Shown here: piece by piece, positions 10,782 through 18,830 of the stretch
Position numbering within the stretch: position 1 is the first letter of the stretch
Layout: each line of letters starts with the position of its first letter
Source of the DNA: Streptomyces sp. 840.1
Lineage (GTDB): Bacteria > Actinomycetota > Actinomycetes > Streptomycetales > Streptomycetaceae
Assembly: GCF_003751445.1 (NCBI RefSeq)
Contig: NZ_RJUU01000001.1
Location: 4,159,001 to 4,223,000 of the forward strand
DNA: 64,000 nucleotides
Direction: 5' to 3'
Translations under genes and position numbers: made by a program
The notes under the pieces: model-generated
Database searches by the model: none
Told to the model about the DNA's origin: nothing
Seen by the model: only the letters and a program-made list of their open reading frames with translations

Positions 10782-12080
10782 ATGGTCATGGAAAACAACG
10801 CGAGCAACTCCGCCCGGACGACCGCCGCCCGACGCCTCCTGGCCGCCGCCACCGTGGTGGTCCTCGCCGCACTGGGCACGGTTCCCGCCTCGGCGGCCGG
10901 GCACTCCGGGTCCGGCCGCCAGGCCCCGGCGCGCCACACGCCCGCACCCGCCGCCGCCCACCACGACGAGCGCGGCGGACTCCTCGCCCTCACCCCGGTG
11001 GCCCGCGTCGGCCGGGCGGGCGTCGCGGACTTCCTCGCCACGGCGGGCATGGACACGGCCACCGTCCGGCACGGTGTCCTGGCCTACCGCCTCACCTACC
11101 GCACCGTCACCCCGCAGGGCGCTCCCACCACCGCCACCGGCCTCCTCGTGCTCCCCGAGGGCGGCGCGCACCGGCTGGACCTGGTCTCCGACACCCACGG
11201 CACGATGGTCCACCGCGACTACGCGCCCTCGGTCGGCGAGGACTCCGGCCGCTACGCCTCCTACCTCCAGGCCTCGGCCGGGCGGGCGGTCGCCGCGCCG
11301 GACTACCTGGGGCTCGGCAAGGGACCCGGATTCCACCCGTACATGGACACCCGGTCCGCCGTCACCGCGACGCTCGACATGCTCCGCGCCTCGCGCACCG
11401 CCGCCCGGCGGCTGGGCCGGCCGCTCACCGGCGACGTGTACGCGAGCGGCTTCTCGCAGGGCGGCCAGGTCGCCATGGCGCTCGGCAAGGCCCTTGAGGG
11501 CGGCGCCGACCGGCGCTTCACCCTGCGGGCCCTGGCCCCCGTCTCGGGGCCCTACGACATCGAGCACGCCGAGATGCCCGGCACCTTCGACGGCAGCATC
11601 AACGACACCAGCGCCCTCTTCTACATGACGTACTTCCTCACCGCGCAGAACCGGATCCACCCGCTCTGGAAGGACCCCTCCGAAGCCTTCCGGAAGCCCT
11701 ACGCGGACATCGTCGAGGGCCTCTTCGACTCCGGCCACACGGAGGAGGAGATCTTCATGTCGCTGCCCGGGACGCTGAGGGAACTGCTCACGGACGACTA
11801 CTACGAGGCGATCCGGCACCCGGCCGGCGCCCTGCTCGCCGCCGTCCGCGCACAGGACGGCAACTGCGCCTGGAAGCCGGACGTCCCGGTGCGGCTCTAC
11901 TCCTCGTCGGGCGACACCGACGTACCCATCGCCAACGCCCGCAACTGCGCGGCCGACCTGGCGAAGCGGGGCGTCCGGGCGCCCGTGACCGACCAGGGCC
12001 CGGCCGGCCACAACGAGACGTACCTGAAGTCGGGTCCGCAGATCGTGCGCTGGTTCGACGCCGAGTCGGCCCGGCACTGA
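10782..12080 (+). CDS. Secreted alpha/beta hydrolase (lipase/esterase-like)
   Basis: About 432 residues with a signal peptide (ARRLLAAATVVVLAALGTVPASAA). The mature part is an alpha/beta hydrolase of the secretory-lipase type: VAAPDYLGLGKGPGFHPYMD before the nucleophile elbow, then the elbow GFSQGG with its serine. A later SGDTDVPIANARNCA probably supplies the acid, and GPAGHNETYL near the C-terminus the histidine. It probably hydrolyses extracellular esters; the substrate is unknown. ATG 10782 and ATG 10788 are both possible and neither has a clear ribosome-binding site. The gene follows the thiolase by about 105 nt and is likely a separate unit. Confidence 0.82.
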   Translation: MVMENNASNSARTTAARRLLAAATVVVLAALGTVPASAAGHSGSGRQAPARHTPAPAAAHHDERGGLLALTPVARVGRAGVADFLATAGMDTATVRHGVLAYRLTYRTVTPQGAPTTATGLLVLPEGGAHRLDLVSDTHGTMVHRDYAPSVGEDSGRYASYLQASAGRAVAAPDYLGLGKGPGFHPYMDTRSAVTATLDMLRASRTAARRLGRPLTGDVYASGFSQGGQVAMALGKALEGGADRRFTLRALAPVSGPYDIEHAEMPGTFDGSINDTSALFYMTYFLTAQNRIHPLWKDPSEAFRKPYADIVEGLFDSGHTEEEIFMSLPGTLRELLTDDYYEAIRHPAGALLAAVRAQDGNCAWKPDVPVRLYSSSGDTDVPIANARNCAADLAKRGVRAPVTDQGPAGHNETYLKSGPQIVRWFDAESARH

Positions 12081-12906: not shown

Positions 12907-13734
12907 TCACTCGCCCGGGACGTCGAATGTGACCTGGGCCTCGAAGTTGGCGCGCCTGGTGGCCCGCCGCAGCGCCTTCAGCAGCGCCGCCCCGACCGTC
13001 AGCGTCAGTACGACGGTGAGCACGGCCCGGCCCAGGTCCCAGCCGGCCGAGGTGGCCGTGCAGTAGGCGAGGAAGCGCACCAGGTTGTCGCCCAGCGGGT
13101 CACCGGGGTGGAAGGAGATTCCCGAACCGAGGCCCGGCACGATGGTCCAGCCGTACAGATTCATGACCGTCCCGTACGCGAACGCCGCCACCGCCCCGTA
13201 GCCCGCCAGCATCAGCAGCTCGGCCCGCCCGCGCAGCCGGTCCGGTGCGGGCAGCAGGCCCGCGCCCATCGTGAACCAGCCCATCGACAGCATCTGGAAC
13301 GGCATCCACGGGCCCACCCCGCCGGTCAGCAGCGCGGACGCGAACATCGTCACCGAGCCGAGCACGAAGCCGAAGCCCGGCCCCAGCACCCGCCCGCTCA
13401 GCACCATCAGGAAGAACATCGGCTCCAGCCCCGCCGTGCCCGCCCCCAGCGGCCGCAGCGCCGCGCCGACCGCGGCCAGCACCCCCAGCATCGCCACCGC
13501 CTTCGCGTCCAGCCCGGCGTCCGCGATCATCGCGACCACCACCCCGACCAGCAGCGGCAGCAGCGCGGCGAACAGCCACGGCGCGTCCTGCGCGTGCGCG
13601 AGACCCGAATCGGCCCCGGCCAGCAGCGGCCAGCCGAAGGCGACCACGCCGATCGCGCTGATCAGCACCAGCGCGGCGACGGCCCGCGGCCCGAGCCGCA
13701 CCGGCCGGGCACCCCGGCCCGTCGTGCCGCTCAC
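12907..13734 (-). CDS. ECF transporter S component (predicted cobalamin-specific)
   Basis: A 275-residue membrane protein with about six or seven helices. It is the substrate-binding (S) subunit of an energy-coupling-factor importer: AAVGAALRPLGAGTAGLEPMFFLMVLSGRVLGPGFGFVLGSVTMF and a second conserved LTGGVGPWMPFQMLSMGWFTMGAGLLP block, as in CbrT/QueT-like S components. It is the last gene of the cobalamin-riboswitch operon. Its GTG overlaps the ATPase stop by 4 nt (GTGA), so translation is coupled. The family does not fix the ligand. Cobalamin or a precursor is inferred from the riboswitch. Confidence 0.85.
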   Translation of the reverse strand: MSGTTGRGARPVRLGPRAVAALVLISAIGVVAFGWPLLAGADSGLAHAQDAPWLFAALLPLLVGVVVAMIADAGLDAKAVAMLGVLAAVGAALRPLGAGTAGLEPMFFLMVLSGRVLGPGFGFVLGSVTMFASALLTGGVGPWMPFQMLSMGWFTMGAGLLPAPDRLRGRAELLMLAGYGAVAAFAYGTVMNLYGWTIVPGLGSGISFHPGDPLGDNLVRFLAYCTATSAGWDLGRAVLTVVLTLTVGAALLKALRRATRRANFEAQVTFDVPGE

Positions 13735-15455
13735 GCGCCACCCCCCAGCGCCGCGCCCACCTGGGACACGGTGAGCCACTCCTGCGGGGCGAGGATCTTC
13801 GAGATCTGCGGGGCGAACGCGGGGGACGACACCACGACCTCCGGGGTCGGCCCGTCCGCCACGACATCGCCGTCGGCCAGGATCACCACCCGGTGCGCCA
13901 GCTCGGCGGCCAGCTCCACGTCATGGGTGGCCAGCACGATCGCGTGGCCCTCGGCCGCCAGTGCGCGCAGCACCCCGACGAGCCGGGCCTTCGCCGCGTA
14001 GTCCAGACCCCGGGTCGGCTCGTCCAGGAGGAGCAGCGGGGGCCGGGCGGTGAGTACGAGGGCGAGGGCCAGGGCGAGGCGCTGGCCCTCGGAGAGATCA
14101 CGGGGGTGGGTGTCGTCCGGTACGCCGGGCAGCAGCTCGGACACCAGGGCCCGGCAGCTGCCCGGCGCGGCGCCCGCGTCGGCGTCCGCCGCCGCGCACT
14201 CGGCGGCGACCGTGTCCGCGTACAGCAGGTCGCGCGGCTCCTGCGGTACGAGGCCGACCCGGCGCACCATCTCGCGCGGCGGCGTGCGGTGCGGGGTCCG
14301 GCCGCCGACCAGGACGCTGCCGGAGGTGGGCTCGACCATGCCCACGAGGGCGGCGAGCAGGGTGGACTTGCCGGCGCCGTTGCGTCCCATGAGCGCGACG
14401 GTCTCGCCGGGCGTGACGGTGAGCGTGACCCGGCGCAGCGCCTCGATCCGGCCGCGCCGCACCCCCAGGCGTTCGATCCGGGTGGTGGCGTCGGTGACCG
14501 GTCCGGGCGCGGCGGTCACCTGCGGGCCGCGCCCGAGGAGCCTGGCCAGGCCGGAGCGCCGGGCGGCGGGGCGGGGCGCGGGGCCCGTCCCGGCCGGCAG
14601 CCGGGGCCCGGCCGTGCCGGAGACCGGTCCGGGCCGCTCGCCCGCCAGCGCCTCGCGCATGCCGGCGGCCCGCCGCCGGGCGTCCCGCACCGAGAGCGGC
14701 AGCGGGTCCCAGCCCGCGAGGCGCCCCAGCGCCACGACCGGCGGGTGCACCGGCGAGAGGGCCATGACATCGGCGGGGGTGCCCATCACGGGGGCGGCGC
14801 CCGGCGCGGGCAGCAGGACGACCTGGTCGGCGTACTGCACGACGCGCTCCAGCCGGTGCTCGGCCATCAGGACCGTCGTGCCCAGGTCGTGGACGAGCCG
14901 CTGGAGCACCGCGAGGACCTCCTCGGCCGCCGCCGGGTCCAGCGCGGACGTCGGCTCGTCCAGGACCAGCACCCGGGGGTGCGGGGTGAGGACGGAGCCG
15001 ATCGCGACCCGCTGCTGCTGGCCGCCGGAGAGCGTGGCGATCGGCCGGTCCCGCAGCCCGGCCAGGCCCAGCAGGTCGAGGGTCTCCTCGACCCGCCGCC
15101 GCATCACGTCCGGGGCCAGGCCCAGCGACTCCATGCCGTACGCCAGCTCGTCCTCGACCGTGTCGGTCACGAAGTGGGAGAGCGGGTCCTGGCCCACCGT
15201 GCCGACCAGATCGGCCAGCTCGCGGGGCTTGTGCGTACGGGTGTCGCGCCCGTCCACGGTGACCCGGCCGGTCAGCCGGCCCCCGGTGAAGTGCGGCACC
15301 AGCCCCGACACGGCACCCAGCAATGTCGACTTGCCGACGCCCGATGGGCCGACGAGCAGCACCAGCTCACCCTCGGGAACGGTCAGGTCGACCCCCGACA
15401 GGGCGGGGCGCCCGGCCCCCTCGTACCGCACCGAAACATCGTCGAACCGGATCAC
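13731..15455 (-). CDS. ECF transporter fused A-A' ATPase
   Basis: A 574-residue protein with two complete ABC ATPase domains in one chain, replacing separate EcfA1/EcfA2. Domain 1 has Walker A GPSGVGKST (36-44), signature LSGGQQQR and Walker B VLVLDEP. Domain 2 has Walker A GRNGAGKST (about 357-365), the variant signature DLSEGQRL and Walker B LLLLDEP. A proline-rich linker of about 60 residues separates them. It energises the T and S subunits. GTG 15455 overlaps the EcfT stop by 4 nt, and its own stop overlaps the next start by 4 nt. A short conserved-looking tail (SSPAFAPQISKILAPQEWLTV) follows domain 2. Confidence 0.92.
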   Translation of the reverse strand: MIRFDDVSVRYEGAGRPALSGVDLTVPEGELVLLVGPSGVGKSTLLGAVSGLVPHFTGGRLTGRVTVDGRDTRTHKPRELADLVGTVGQDPLSHFVTDTVEDELAYGMESLGLAPDVMRRRVEETLDLLGLAGLRDRPIATLSGGQQQRVAIGSVLTPHPRVLVLDEPTSALDPAAAEEVLAVLQRLVHDLGTTVLMAEHRLERVVQYADQVVLLPAPGAAPVMGTPADVMALSPVHPPVVALGRLAGWDPLPLSVRDARRRAAGMREALAGERPGPVSGTAGPRLPAGTGPAPRPAARRSGLARLLGRGPQVTAAPGPVTDATTRIERLGVRRGRIEALRRVTLTVTPGETVALMGRNGAGKSTLLAALVGMVEPTSGSVLVGGRTPHRTPPREMVRRVGLVPQEPRDLLYADTVAAECAAADADAGAAPGSCRALVSELLPGVPDDTHPRDLSEGQRLALALALVLTARPPLLLLDEPTRGLDYAAKARLVGVLRALAAEGHAIVLATHDVELAAELAHRVVILADGDVVADGPTPEVVVSSPAFAPQISKILAPQEWLTVSQVGAALGGGA

Positions 15456-16618
15456 ACCTGCTCCTCGAAGCCTGTGGGGGAAGGCGGGACGGGCGCGACC
15501 AGCGCGGGCAGCAGACCGATCAGCACCGCGGCGGCGGGCCACAGCGGCAGCACCGGTGCGGTCAGCGGTACGACCCCGGGGTGCAGCGCCGCCGGATCCA
15601 CGGCGCCCGCCCGGATCATCGCCACCGCGACCGCCGCACCGGAACCCGCGACCAGCCAGGCCCGTACGCCCCACCGGTCGGGCCGGTAGCGGGTCCGCAC
15701 CGAACGCGCCCCGCCGAGCCGCAGCCCGGCCATCGCCGCCACCAGCCCGGCGATCAGCAGCGGCAGCCCGTACACGGCGCCCTGCGCGGCCAGCAGCCCG
15801 TAGGTGCCGGCGCAGACCCCGAGCAGCCCGCCGAGGGTGAGGACGTTGGTGGTGTGCCGGACGGCGGCGGGCACCTGGGCGGTACGCCCGTAGCCGCGCG
15901 CGTCCATCGATGCGGCCACCGCGACCGACCGTTCCAGCGCGCCCTCCAGGACCGGCAGCCCGATCTGGAGCACGGCCCCGACCCCGCCGGTCGCCCGGCC
16001 CCGAAGCCGCCGGGCGGTGCGCAGCCGCACCACGTCGGCGACCAGGTTCGGCGCGAACGTCATCGCGACGACGACCGCCACCCCGGCCTCGTACAGCGCA
16101 CCGGGCAGCGACTTCAGCAGCCGGGCCGGATTGGCGAGCGAGTTCGCCGCGCCGACGCAGATCAGCAGGGTGGCCAGCTTCGCGCCGTCGTACAGCGCGA
16201 ACAGCAGTTGCTCGGCGGTGACCCGGCCGCCGATCCGCACCCCCTTCGCCCAGTCCGGCAGCGGCACCTCGGGCAGGGTGAACACCACGTGCGTGCCGGG
16301 GATCGGTGAGCCGAGGAAGACCGAGAACAGCAGCCGCACCCCGATGACGAACAGCCCGATCTTGATGAACGCCGCGTAGGAGCGGGCCCAGGGCGCGTCC
16401 GTGCGGCGCGCGGCCACCACGTAACCCGCCACGCCCACCAGCAGGCCGAGCAGCAGCGGATTGGTCGTCCGGGACGCGGCGGTGGCGAGTCCCAGCGCCC
16501 ACAGCCACCAGGCCCCGGCGGGCAGCGCGTTGCTCCGGGTCGCGGCGGGGGCGCGCCAGACCGGGGCCGGGGCGACGGCCGCCGGGGCGCTCCCGGTGCC
16601 GTCCGTCGAGCCGTTCAT
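15452..16618 (-). CDS. ECF transporter transmembrane T component (EcfT/CbiQ-like)
   Basis: A 388-residue membrane protein. Its CbiQ-type coupling motif is visible as VAASMDARGYGR (the Ala-Arg-Gly coupling-helix signature that docks into the ATPases), preceded by RTARRLRG, the other basic coupling segment. It is longer than a usual EcfT (about 260 residues): after the coupling motif there are four or five further hydrophobic segments. The ATG overlaps the preceding stop by 4 nt (ATGA). It is the scaffold linking the fused ATPase and the S component in the same operon. Confidence 0.9.
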   Translation of the reverse strand: MNGSTDGTGSAPAAVAPAPVWRAPAATRSNALPAGAWWLWALGLATAASRTTNPLLLGLLVGVAGYVVAARRTDAPWARSYAAFIKIGLFVIGVRLLFSVFLGSPIPGTHVVFTLPEVPLPDWAKGVRIGGRVTAEQLLFALYDGAKLATLLICVGAANSLANPARLLKSLPGALYEAGVAVVVAMTFAPNLVADVVRLRTARRLRGRATGGVGAVLQIGLPVLEGALERSVAVAASMDARGYGRTAQVPAAVRHTTNVLTLGGLLGVCAGTYGLLAAQGAVYGLPLLIAGLVAAMAGLRLGGARSVRTRYRPDRWGVRAWLVAGSGAAVAVAMIRAGAVDPAALHPGVVPLTAPVLPLWPAAAVLIGLLPALVAPVPPSPTGFEEQV

Positions 16619-17304
16619 CCGCGGCGGCGGCGGGCCTGTGCGACTGCGGCGATGCCGAGCAGGAGGACGGCGCCGACCCCGAACAGCACCCCGGCGGACG
16701 GACCGCCGCCGGAGCCGCCGCTGCGGGCGGCGGCGGAGGAGGCCGACGCGGGTGCGGACGGGTCCGCGGTCGCCCGGCCGCTCTCGGTGCCGGTGGTTCC
16801 CGAGACCTGCTCACCGCAGCCCGCGACCGGATAGCCGGAGATCGCGCACAGCAGCGCGTCACTCCCGTAGCGCAGCGGCTTGGCCACCGATGCGAGGGCC
16901 TCCGCGCTGCTGGCGTCCTTCGGGACCCGCGCGCACGCGGTGCGCAGCGCGGGCGGGGTCTCGCCCTGCGGCGCGTCGGCGGCGGTGCCGGAGTCGATGA
17001 CGAGTGCGATCCGCTTGGCGTTGTCCCGGGCCGGGGTGCCGGCGCAGATCGCCCCGAAGTCGGGGGAGCGGCGCGGCTTCGCCGCGTCCTGCGAGTCGGC
17101 GCTCACGGCGAACCGGAAGCCCTGCACCGAACCGTCGTCCGGCCGGACCAGGGACGGCCCCTGGGTGGCGTACGCCCACCCGCTGCCGGAGCCCTCCCAG
17201 AAGGACCAGTAGCGGTAGCCCGCGGCCTGGGCCGTACCCGTGCCGAGCACGGCCAGGACGGCGCCCAGGACCACCAGCAGCACGGCGGTCCGGCAGCCCC
17301 TCAC
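16615..17304 (-). CDS. SCO2322-like anchored extracellular protein with DUF4430-like start
   Basis: A 229-residue protein. A signal peptide (RTAVLLVVLGAVLAVLGTGTAQAA) is followed by YRYWSFWEGSGSGWAYATQG and a run ending DGSVQGFRF. That layout resembles the YWS..G.W....G...V.DGD...W/F pattern of DUF4430/transcobalamin-like C-terminal domains. The rest holds four or more cysteines, a Ser/Ala/Gly-rich stalk and a C-terminal membrane helix with RRRR. It matches what I recall as the SCO2322 protein family, whose function is not established. The GTG overlaps the upstream stop by 4 nt. A part in surface ligand capture is my inference from the operon and the riboswitch. Confidence 0.75.
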   Translation of the reverse strand: MRGCRTAVLLVVLGAVLAVLGTGTAQAAGYRYWSFWEGSGSGWAYATQGPSLVRPDDGSVQGFRFAVSADSQDAAKPRRSPDFGAICAGTPARDNAKRIALVIDSGTAADAPQGETPPALRTACARVPKDASSAEALASVAKPLRYGSDALLCAISGYPVAGCGEQVSGTTGTESGRATADPSAPASASSAAARSGGSGGGPSAGVLFGVGAVLLLGIAAVAQARRRRG

Positions 17305-18566
17305 AGCTGCTGGTTCTTCCGGCGGCCGCTGATCAGGAAGCCGGCGCCCGCGCCGACGGCGAGGCCGATCCCGACGAACCACCAGACACCGCCGATCCCG
17401 TCCCCGTCGCCGCTGTCCTTCTTCTCCTCGTCCTCGGTGGCGGTCGGCTTCGGCGTCGAAATGGAGGCGGGGGCCGGCCCGGTCGCGTTCAGCCGGGTGA
17501 CGAGGTCGGCGCCGCCGAAGTCGTGCACGTCGGCGCCGGTGGAGTGGGCGGCCATGACCAGCTGGGCATAGGCGGCCGGGCCGCTCTGCTCGGCCCAGGC
17601 GGCGGAGTTCTTCGCCAGCCAGTCGACGGAGGCGGCGGCCTTGTCCTTGTGCCCGGAGGCGGACAGGGCGACGACCGCGTCGGCGGTGTTGCCGAAGTCG
17701 GGCTGCGGGGCGCTGTCCTCGGCCCCCGGCATCGGCGGCTGGTCGAGGTGGCCGGTCTTCGCGAGGGCCCCGGCGAGGTAGTGGGCGCCGTTCTGGGCGG
17801 CCCGCTCCGGCCTGAGCGGGGCGCTGCCCTTCTCGCAGGTGGGCGCCTTGGCCGCGGCGGTGTCGCCGACGACGAGCCCCTTGCCGAGCGCGGCGAGGAC
17901 GCCTGCGGCGGTGGCGTCGGCGTTGGCGACGAGCTTGCCGGCCTTGTCGGGCTGGTAGGCGAAGGCGCCGCCGTCCTTGCCGCCGCAGGGGATGGCGAAG
18001 CCGAGCAGCGCGTTGTAGGGGGTCTTGCCGCCGTGCGTCGTGATGTCCCCGAGCCGCTCGCCGGCGCGGGAGAGGGCGCCGATCACGATCGAGGTGGAGT
18101 TCGCGTCACTGGGCCCGCCGGCGGTGTATCCCCAGCCGCCGTCCTCGTTCTGGACGGACTTCAGCCAGTCGAGCCCGTTGGCGACGAGCTCCTGGTGCTT
18201 GCCGACCTCGTGCAGCGCCTGCACGGCGGCCGCCGTCGCGTTGGTGTCGATCACGGTCTTGGCGTCGCACGGCACGGAGGGGTCGGGGCGGTACGCGGGA
18301 AACGCCCCGCTGTCGCACTGCTGTCCGACCAGCCAGTCCACGGCCTTCGCGGCGGGCATGACGCCCACGGCCCGCTGCGACACGAAGGCCAGTGACTGCC
18401 GCCACACCCCGTCGTACGTCGGGTCCGTCGTGCCGTACAGCCCCGAGGGCAGCGCCGCCGACGGGGAGGGGGACGGTGCGGCGACCGCGGCCGGGGCTGC
18501 GGCTGCGGCCGCGCAGAGCACGGCAGCGGTGGCGGCGAGCGCGGCTGCGCTGCGGCGTACGGTCAT
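17301..18566 (-). CDS. Anchored prenyltransferase/squalene-oxidase-repeat (alpha/alpha toroid) protein
   Basis: A 421-residue exported protein. It has a signal peptide ending near AVAAPSPSPS and then several alpha/alpha-toroid repeats with QW-like cores (AVDWLVGQQCDSGAF, GLDWLKSVQNEDGGWGY, FAIPCGGKDGGAF, SVDWLAKNSAAW). A Thr/Glu/Lys linker follows, then a C-terminal membrane helix and the basic tail SGRRKNQQL. No DxDD or other cyclase catalytic motif is present, so it is probably a binding protein, not an enzyme. It is the first gene after the cobalamin riboswitch. The same fold forms the alpha domain of intrinsic factor/transcobalamin, which together with the context suggests corrinoid binding. 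AGGAGAGG lies 13-20 nt before the ATG. Confidence 0.82.
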   Translation of the reverse strand: MTVRRSAAALAATAAVLCAAAAAAPAAVAAPSPSPSAALPSGLYGTTDPTYDGVWRQSLAFVSQRAVGVMPAAKAVDWLVGQQCDSGAFPAYRPDPSVPCDAKTVIDTNATAAAVQALHEVGKHQELVANGLDWLKSVQNEDGGWGYTAGGPSDANSTSIVIGALSRAGERLGDITTHGGKTPYNALLGFAIPCGGKDGGAFAYQPDKAGKLVANADATAAGVLAALGKGLVVGDTAAAKAPTCEKGSAPLRPERAAQNGAHYLAGALAKTGHLDQPPMPGAEDSAPQPDFGNTADAVVALSASGHKDKAAASVDWLAKNSAAWAEQSGPAAYAQLVMAAHSTGADVHDFGGADLVTRLNATGPAPASISTPKPTATEDEEKKDSGDGDGIGGVWWFVGIGLAVGAGAGFLISGRRKNQQL

Positions 18567-18667
18567 GGCGGGCGGGGCCTCTCCTGCGGGAACCGGGCTC
18601 AGGCGCACTCAGGCACCGGGCTCCGGCTCCGTATACCTCGACGGTGCCGGCCACCGGGGTCCCGATG

Positions 18668-18830
18668 GCACGAGCCGGTCACGACCCGGACAGGGCATTC
18701 CGGCTCCCGCCGGGGGCGGTCACGGGATGGGGTGTCCCCTGCTCGAGCGAAGTCGAGAGCTTGGGGAACGGCCAGTGCCGGATTCGCACCGGCTTCCCCC
18801 TGAACGGGCATGATGACGACTCGCACACTC
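18668..18830 (-). promoter_or_regulatory. Cobalamin riboswitch
   Basis: Read on the minus strand, the leader contains GGGGAAGCCGGTGCGAATCC followed by GGCACTGGCC, the hallmark G-G-G-A-A..GGTG..AATCC..CTG core. About 75 nt further is GGGAGCCGGAATGCCC, a fair match to the B12 box. Boundaries are approximate. Between the core and the B12 box sits an extra hairpin (18734-18769). The stretch to the start codon includes CGGTGGCCGGCACCG (near 18643-18657), a candidate expression-platform hairpin. It should turn down the five-gene ECF operon when cobalamin is plentiful. Confidence 0.82.
18734..18769. repeat. Palindromic hairpin of a type repeated in Streptomyces genomes
   Basis: The minus strand reads GTTCCCC, then GCTCTCGA-cttcgc-TCGAGC, then GGGGAC, giving two stacked stems with a bulged T. 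This CTCTCGACTTCGCTCGAGC core is one I recall as recurring between genes in many Streptomyces genomes. Here it sits in the variable middle of the cobalamin riboswitch. Confidence 0.5.

Follow-up and report, generated by a model that had tools for sequence, protein, structure and literature searches.

The animal cobalamin carriers transcobalamin, haptocorrin and intrinsic factor combine an alpha/alpha toroid with a beta-grasp domain; DUF4430 has been noted in the fish carriers (PMC4350170). Burroughs et al. (2007; PMC1796856) described bacterial surface proteins that join a toroid to an SLBB domain, the toroid lying on either side of it, and that are encoded in operons with CbiO and CbiQ, often beside a second extracellular SLBB protein; they were proposed to scavenge B12 or its precursors, and transfer to animals was proposed as well. 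In the account given there, the clade spans low-GC Gram-positives, planctomycetes and some euryarchaea, usually without B12 synthesis. The cobalamin importer of the energy-coupling factor (ECF) type that has been studied is ECF-CbrT of Lactobacillus delbrueckii (PMC5997447). The subject of what follows is a five-gene operon (positions 12907 to 18566) in a 64,000-nucleotide window of the Streptomyces sp. 840.1 genome (contig NZ_RJUU01000001.1, 4,159,001 to 4,223,000), which encodes two surface proteins of the SCO2321 and SCO2322 families together with an ECF importer.

The operon shares with the animal carriers the pairing of toroid and beta-grasp-like domain, but distributes the two over separate anchored bacterial proteins, each circularly permuted, whose binding of corrinoids is predicted. 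Surface toroid and SLBB-like partner, as well as CbiO/CbiQ-type neighbors, recall the clade of Burroughs et al.; the SCO2321/SCO2322 form differs from it, as far as described, in being actinobacterial, split and permuted, and in coming with an S component of its own and with a cobalamin riboswitch. (Neither "permut" nor "Streptomyces" occurs in the text of PMC1796856.) With ECF-CbrT the operon has in common the ECF-type module and, by prediction, the vitamin; the passages on ECF-CbrT name no surface carrier, unlike the operon here. Both window proteins belong to NCBI families (SCO2321_fam and SCO2322_fam), and close relatives of both bear Pfam PF28005 as a precomputed label; these entries carry no function. 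The initial annotation knew of no experimental description of such a system, and none surfaced among the literature matches listed, although the general idea had been predicted computationally in 2007 (PMC1796856). We consider it quite probable that the operon is dedicated to corrinoid uptake, with SCO2321 and SCO2322 forming a two-protein clamp, each half permuted, that hands its ligand over to the ECF S component.

Gene 1 (17301 to 18566; all features lie on the minus strand) encodes a member of the SCO2321 family (584.2 bits with NF053823, curated cut-off 300) with an alpha/alpha-toroid match (SQHop_cyclase_C, 31.7 bits, cut-off 26.1). Pfam Cobalamin_bind (PF01122) has no match in this protein and matches two of 25 unpermuted toroids (best E 2e-4). 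Gene 2 (16615 to 17304) encodes a beta-grasp-like member of the SCO2322 family (224.6 bits with NF040672, curated cut-off 85). Each protein has a signal-like N-terminus and, at its C-terminus, a hydrophobic segment followed by a basic tail, features read by eye with no predictor; the anchored toroid protein of the initial annotation stands, its toroid on the profile match and its anchor on these features. The C-terminus of SCO2322 (16615 to 16701) also has a likeness to the GPS-CTERM sorting signal (20.9 bits, cut-off 28), which scores similarly below threshold in three of eight relatives.

Judged from profile alignments, SCO2321 and SCO2322 are both circular permutants of their relatives. A toroid model built without SCO2321 matches it in two parts, model positions 123-288 coming first (103.1 bits; residues 44-226, at 17889 to 18437) and positions 10-112 second (45.2 bits; residues 250-362, at 17481 to 17819). 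The doubled model gives a single match of 148.5 bits that takes in 291 of the 301 positions of one turn, with shuffles reaching at most 5.8 bits; in five unpermuted toroid controls doubling adds no more than 1 bit. The linear SCO2322 model, for its part, matches unpermuted relatives as two halves in swapped order. Doubled, it yields one match across the halves of 68.9, 58.7 and 51.3 bits in loci L031, L032 and L050 (shuffles at most 5.1); the gain is small in other loci, and there is none in L035, L037, L048, L049 and P0149, where half 2 alone is recognised. In the window protein, half 2 (YRYWSFW ... GFRF, residues about 28-85, at 17050 to 17223) precedes half 1 (KRIALVID ... GYPVAGCG, residues about 93-168, at 16801 to 17028), the borders being approximate in both. 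The AlphaFold model of SCO2322 (block means of its pLDDT confidence score 87-98 over residues 31-160) opens with b5 b6 b7 and, after a short additional helix, continues with b1 b2 H b3 b4, whereas the domain of a fused, single-chain relative runs b1 b2 H b3 b4 b5 b6 b7. By these models, the whole SCO2322 ectodomain corresponds, in permuted order, to the beta domain that in the fused relative resembles transcobalamin's.

The two permutations go together. A scan with an S-component alignment returned at least 561 relatives among 594 candidate stretches, and 80 loci were kept (mostly Actinomycetota, plus three records from Chloroflexota and two that bear the label Acidobacteria); 54 are evaluable, 26 having been set aside because T is missing or starts within 2.5 kb of the stretch start. 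With beta domains called at 50 bits or more for the unpermuted form and 100 for the permuted, and toroids at 60 or 100, a beta-domain gene is found in 51 of the 54 (37 unpermuted, 14 permuted) and a toroid in 37; in four, both domains share one open frame. The loci without a called beta domain are L076, L082 and L095; since a beta domain is readable in L048, whose genome record has the same length as that of L076, the cut-off misses some. Where both partners are present, both are permuted in eight loci and neither in 29, with no mixed locus (Fisher p 2.6e-8, related loci being treated as independent). The toroid labels follow whichever model scored; the order itself was read with the doubled model in all eight permuted loci and in five of the 29 unpermuted, and in L093 the second toroid part adds only 2 to 5 bits. 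On a 46-row tree of S and T the permuted form requires two changes, monophyly being rejected; it may have been gained twice, or gained once and afterwards lost or exchanged. Relatives with tandem beta domains and tandem toroids also occur, and are plausible as intermediates of the permutation. One Streptomyces genome (G171, loci L041 and L042) has two copies of the operon, one permuted and the other unpermuted. The double circular permutation, a form with both halves rearranged, looks new.

The link to transcobalamin runs through the relatives. In the Euzebya-type loci L033, L034 and L045 a single chain carries a toroid, one or two beta domains and CWB2 cell-wall repeats, and adjoins a second, separate beta-domain protein and ECF genes. 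The AlphaFold model of the L034 protein (pLDDT 91.9) was compared with the PDB by Foldseek: transcobalamin or haptocorrin structures take all of the first 13 places, at E values from 2.2e-10 to 5.0e-8, the next fold following at 2.4e-5, and the transcobalamin beta domain alone (5no0) stands at rank 46 (E 1.8e-3, TMt 0.64). The top 13 matches extend over 416-466 columns with template-modelling (TM) scores of 0.38-0.47 and root-mean-square deviations of 21-24, which indicates that the domain orientation differs from that in transcobalamin. Because the fused model finds these carriers, and because cobalamin riboswitches lie upstream in operons of this type, the proposal of a transcobalamin-like capture system split into two proteins beside an importer is well supported by way of the relatives. 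In P0156 the beta domain precedes the toroid, the opposite of the transcobalamin order; that order has already been noted for Bacillus (PMC1796856).

The mechanism that we envisage has the SCO2321 toroid and the SCO2322 beta-grasp domain held outside the membrane by their C-terminal anchors, where together they would form a transcobalamin-like clamp sandwiching the corrinoid and would deliver it to S, the substrate-binding part of a complete importer (T, A-A', S), the cobalamin riboswitch normally limiting expression of the operon. The clamp would be divided over two genes, each half circularly permuted, where some relatives have a single toroid-beta chain. That the ligand is a corrinoid, that the two proteins close into a clamp and that S receives the ligand is what we infer. 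The bolder formulation, in which a B12 clamp homologous to transcobalamin has been split into two anchored, evolutionarily matched proteins, both permuted, whose new termini allow separate anchoring while the same corrinoid pocket is rebuilt over S, strikes us as evenly balanced between right and wrong.

Several results qualify this picture. The N-terminus of SCO2322 had been said to resemble DUF4430; the Pfam DUF4430 profile matches neither gene 2 nor nine relatives nor 25 unpermuted relatives. The comparison of the SCO2322 model with known folds came out divided: its strand and helix order is the permuted order of the fused relative, but an order-dependent structure search of the PDB returned no direct match for it. 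An obligatory pair is called into question by seven of seven genomes that have SCO2322 and the ECF genes without an SCO2321 match and with no toroid in the stretch; the query used on them matched 60 of 61 Streptomyces genomes (E 0.001), among them G308 with a weak fragment only and G331 with a split match, and the sole genome without a match, G344, is 82% complete. Six of the seven were also scanned with an unpermuted-toroid profile, which had no match in four and picked up weak, partial stretches in the other two. Lastly, the riboswitch that the initial annotation placed before the operon is a homologue by alignment, yet it reaches only 17.8 bits with RF00174 (18799-18730, E 0.034; gathering cut-off 31.5), and an Rfam scan of the window found no riboswitch at gathering anywhere.

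The aptamer core of this element lies at 18690 to 18812 (GGGGGAAGCCGGTGCGAATCCGGCACTG from 18800, 3' box AGCCGGAATGCCCTG from 18705). Intact riboswitches from Streptomyces can be aligned closely with the region upstream of the operon, but in the latter a palindromic repeat at 18736 to 18766 replaces CGCAAC and interrupts the core. The repeat has one further exact copy in the genome and occurs in four places in all within 2 mismatches; the hairpin of a 51-nucleotide stretch (-15.1 kcal/mol, z -1.09) is not unusual by energy. By eye, a palindrome-like insert sits at the same spot in 10 of 50 Streptomyces riboswitches, the window's included. The core pattern is present in 47 of 50 Streptomyces upstream stretches (30 + 20); in L157 and L177 the riboswitch is recognisable by eye without the pattern, and in L178 it is not recognisable. 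RF00174 reaches gathering in six of 20 Streptomyces loci. In the wider set, a sample of 28 of 100 loci (L037 and L052 being one contig), a cobalamin-clan riboswitch at Rfam gathering stands upstream on the operon strand in 16, among them AdoCbl in L075 and L077 and AdoCbl-II in L096; that of L039 is about 1 kb away. The core pattern is found in 43 of the 54 evaluable loci; for comparison, the entire 1.35 Mb holds 51 matches on one strand and 12 on the other. Cobalamin control is thus well supported for the family and doubtful for the window copy. The window's own genome has seven other matches above the cut-off, and in S. coelicolor putative B12 riboswitches are described before eight further genes or clusters (PMC4991794, citing Borovok 2006). 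In L110 the operon is followed by a further beta-domain gene (10854-11608) that has a cobalamin riboswitch of its own.

The five-gene operon is real and conserved. Its open reading frames run on the minus strand from 18566 to 12907 and are joined, as first described, by 4-nucleotide overlaps (GTGA or ATGA) at all four junctions. Behind the two surface proteins come the CbiQ-like transmembrane component T (gene 3, 15452 to 16618), the fused ATPases A-A' (gene 4, 13731 to 15455) and the substrate-binding component S (gene 5, 12907 to 13734). A-A' matches ABC_tran in two stretches and cbiO TIGR01166 at 259.7 bits (cut-off 211.8); T matches PF02361 at 22 bits (E 1.5e-4, Pfam cut-off 25), and S matches PF12822, the ECF substrate-specific component, at 26.3 bits (E 9e-6, cut-off 30.7). 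The full ECF importer of the initial annotation is borne out: T, two ATPases and S lie within one operon, T and S scoring slightly below the Pfam cut-offs, and the set is conserved in relatives. Of 296 genomes from the phylum, 44 have a match to SCO2322_fam, 10 of them above the cut-off, at 49 places among the matches listed; in 20 of 20 stretches taken from some of these places T, A-A' and S adjoin the match, and S relatives recur in the S-alignment scan. A profile of S run against the PDB matched no S component, the best hit (E 1.8) being to another protein.

How much of the capture falls to the toroid is a point on which an alternative has some weight. SCO2322, with S, may handle the ligand alone, the toroid being accessory or serving another role; the seven genomes without an SCO2321 match speak for this, the toroid is absent from the stretch in six permuted and eight unpermuted evaluable loci, and the unpermuted-toroid profile found nothing in five of ten genomes and partial stretches alone in three more. 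Set against this are the co-permutation, which ties SCO2321 to SCO2322 without a mixed locus, and the single-chain fusions, whose transcobalamin-like model ties toroid to beta domain, so that we think this alternative rather unlikely. We hold a similarly tentative view of the proposal that the corrinoid taken up is not cobalamin itself but a precursor or analogue of it (cobinamide or lower-ligand variants): ECF-CbrT is described as accepting cobinamide besides cobalamin (PMC5997447), and streptomycetes make cobalamin (PMC4991794), which makes salvage of incomplete corrinoids plausible, but the fused relative finds its closest folds among the carriers of cobalamin in animals, and several of these structures contain bound cobalamin.

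That the transporter imports cobalt or another metal, with surface proteins unrelated to transport, is suggested by the resemblance of T and A-A' to CbiQ and CbiO, names that originate in cobalt transport. It is nevertheless very improbable, since PF12822 is the sole Pfam match of S up to E 1 and since, throughout the family, cobalamin riboswitches are found together with transcobalamin-like domains. Least probable of all is that SCO2321 is a secreted terpene-cyclase-like enzyme. In sequence comparisons with Pfam and the PDB the toroid matches squalene-hopene cyclases best, and for the toroid of the fused relative the top-ranked VIA result is drimenyl diphosphate synthase. But DxDD, the catalytic motif of class II terpene cyclases, occurs neither in SCO2321 nor in 25 relatives (nor does the TED motif CGEQ), and the signal-like N-terminus, recognised by eye, and the operon context also speak against such an enzyme.

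Corrinoid capture by a two-protein clamp would give a testable function to SCO2321 and SCO2322, two families that have had none, and would link them to the origin of the animal B12 carriers. It would also provide a case of a presumed binding pair in which both partners have been circularly permuted together.
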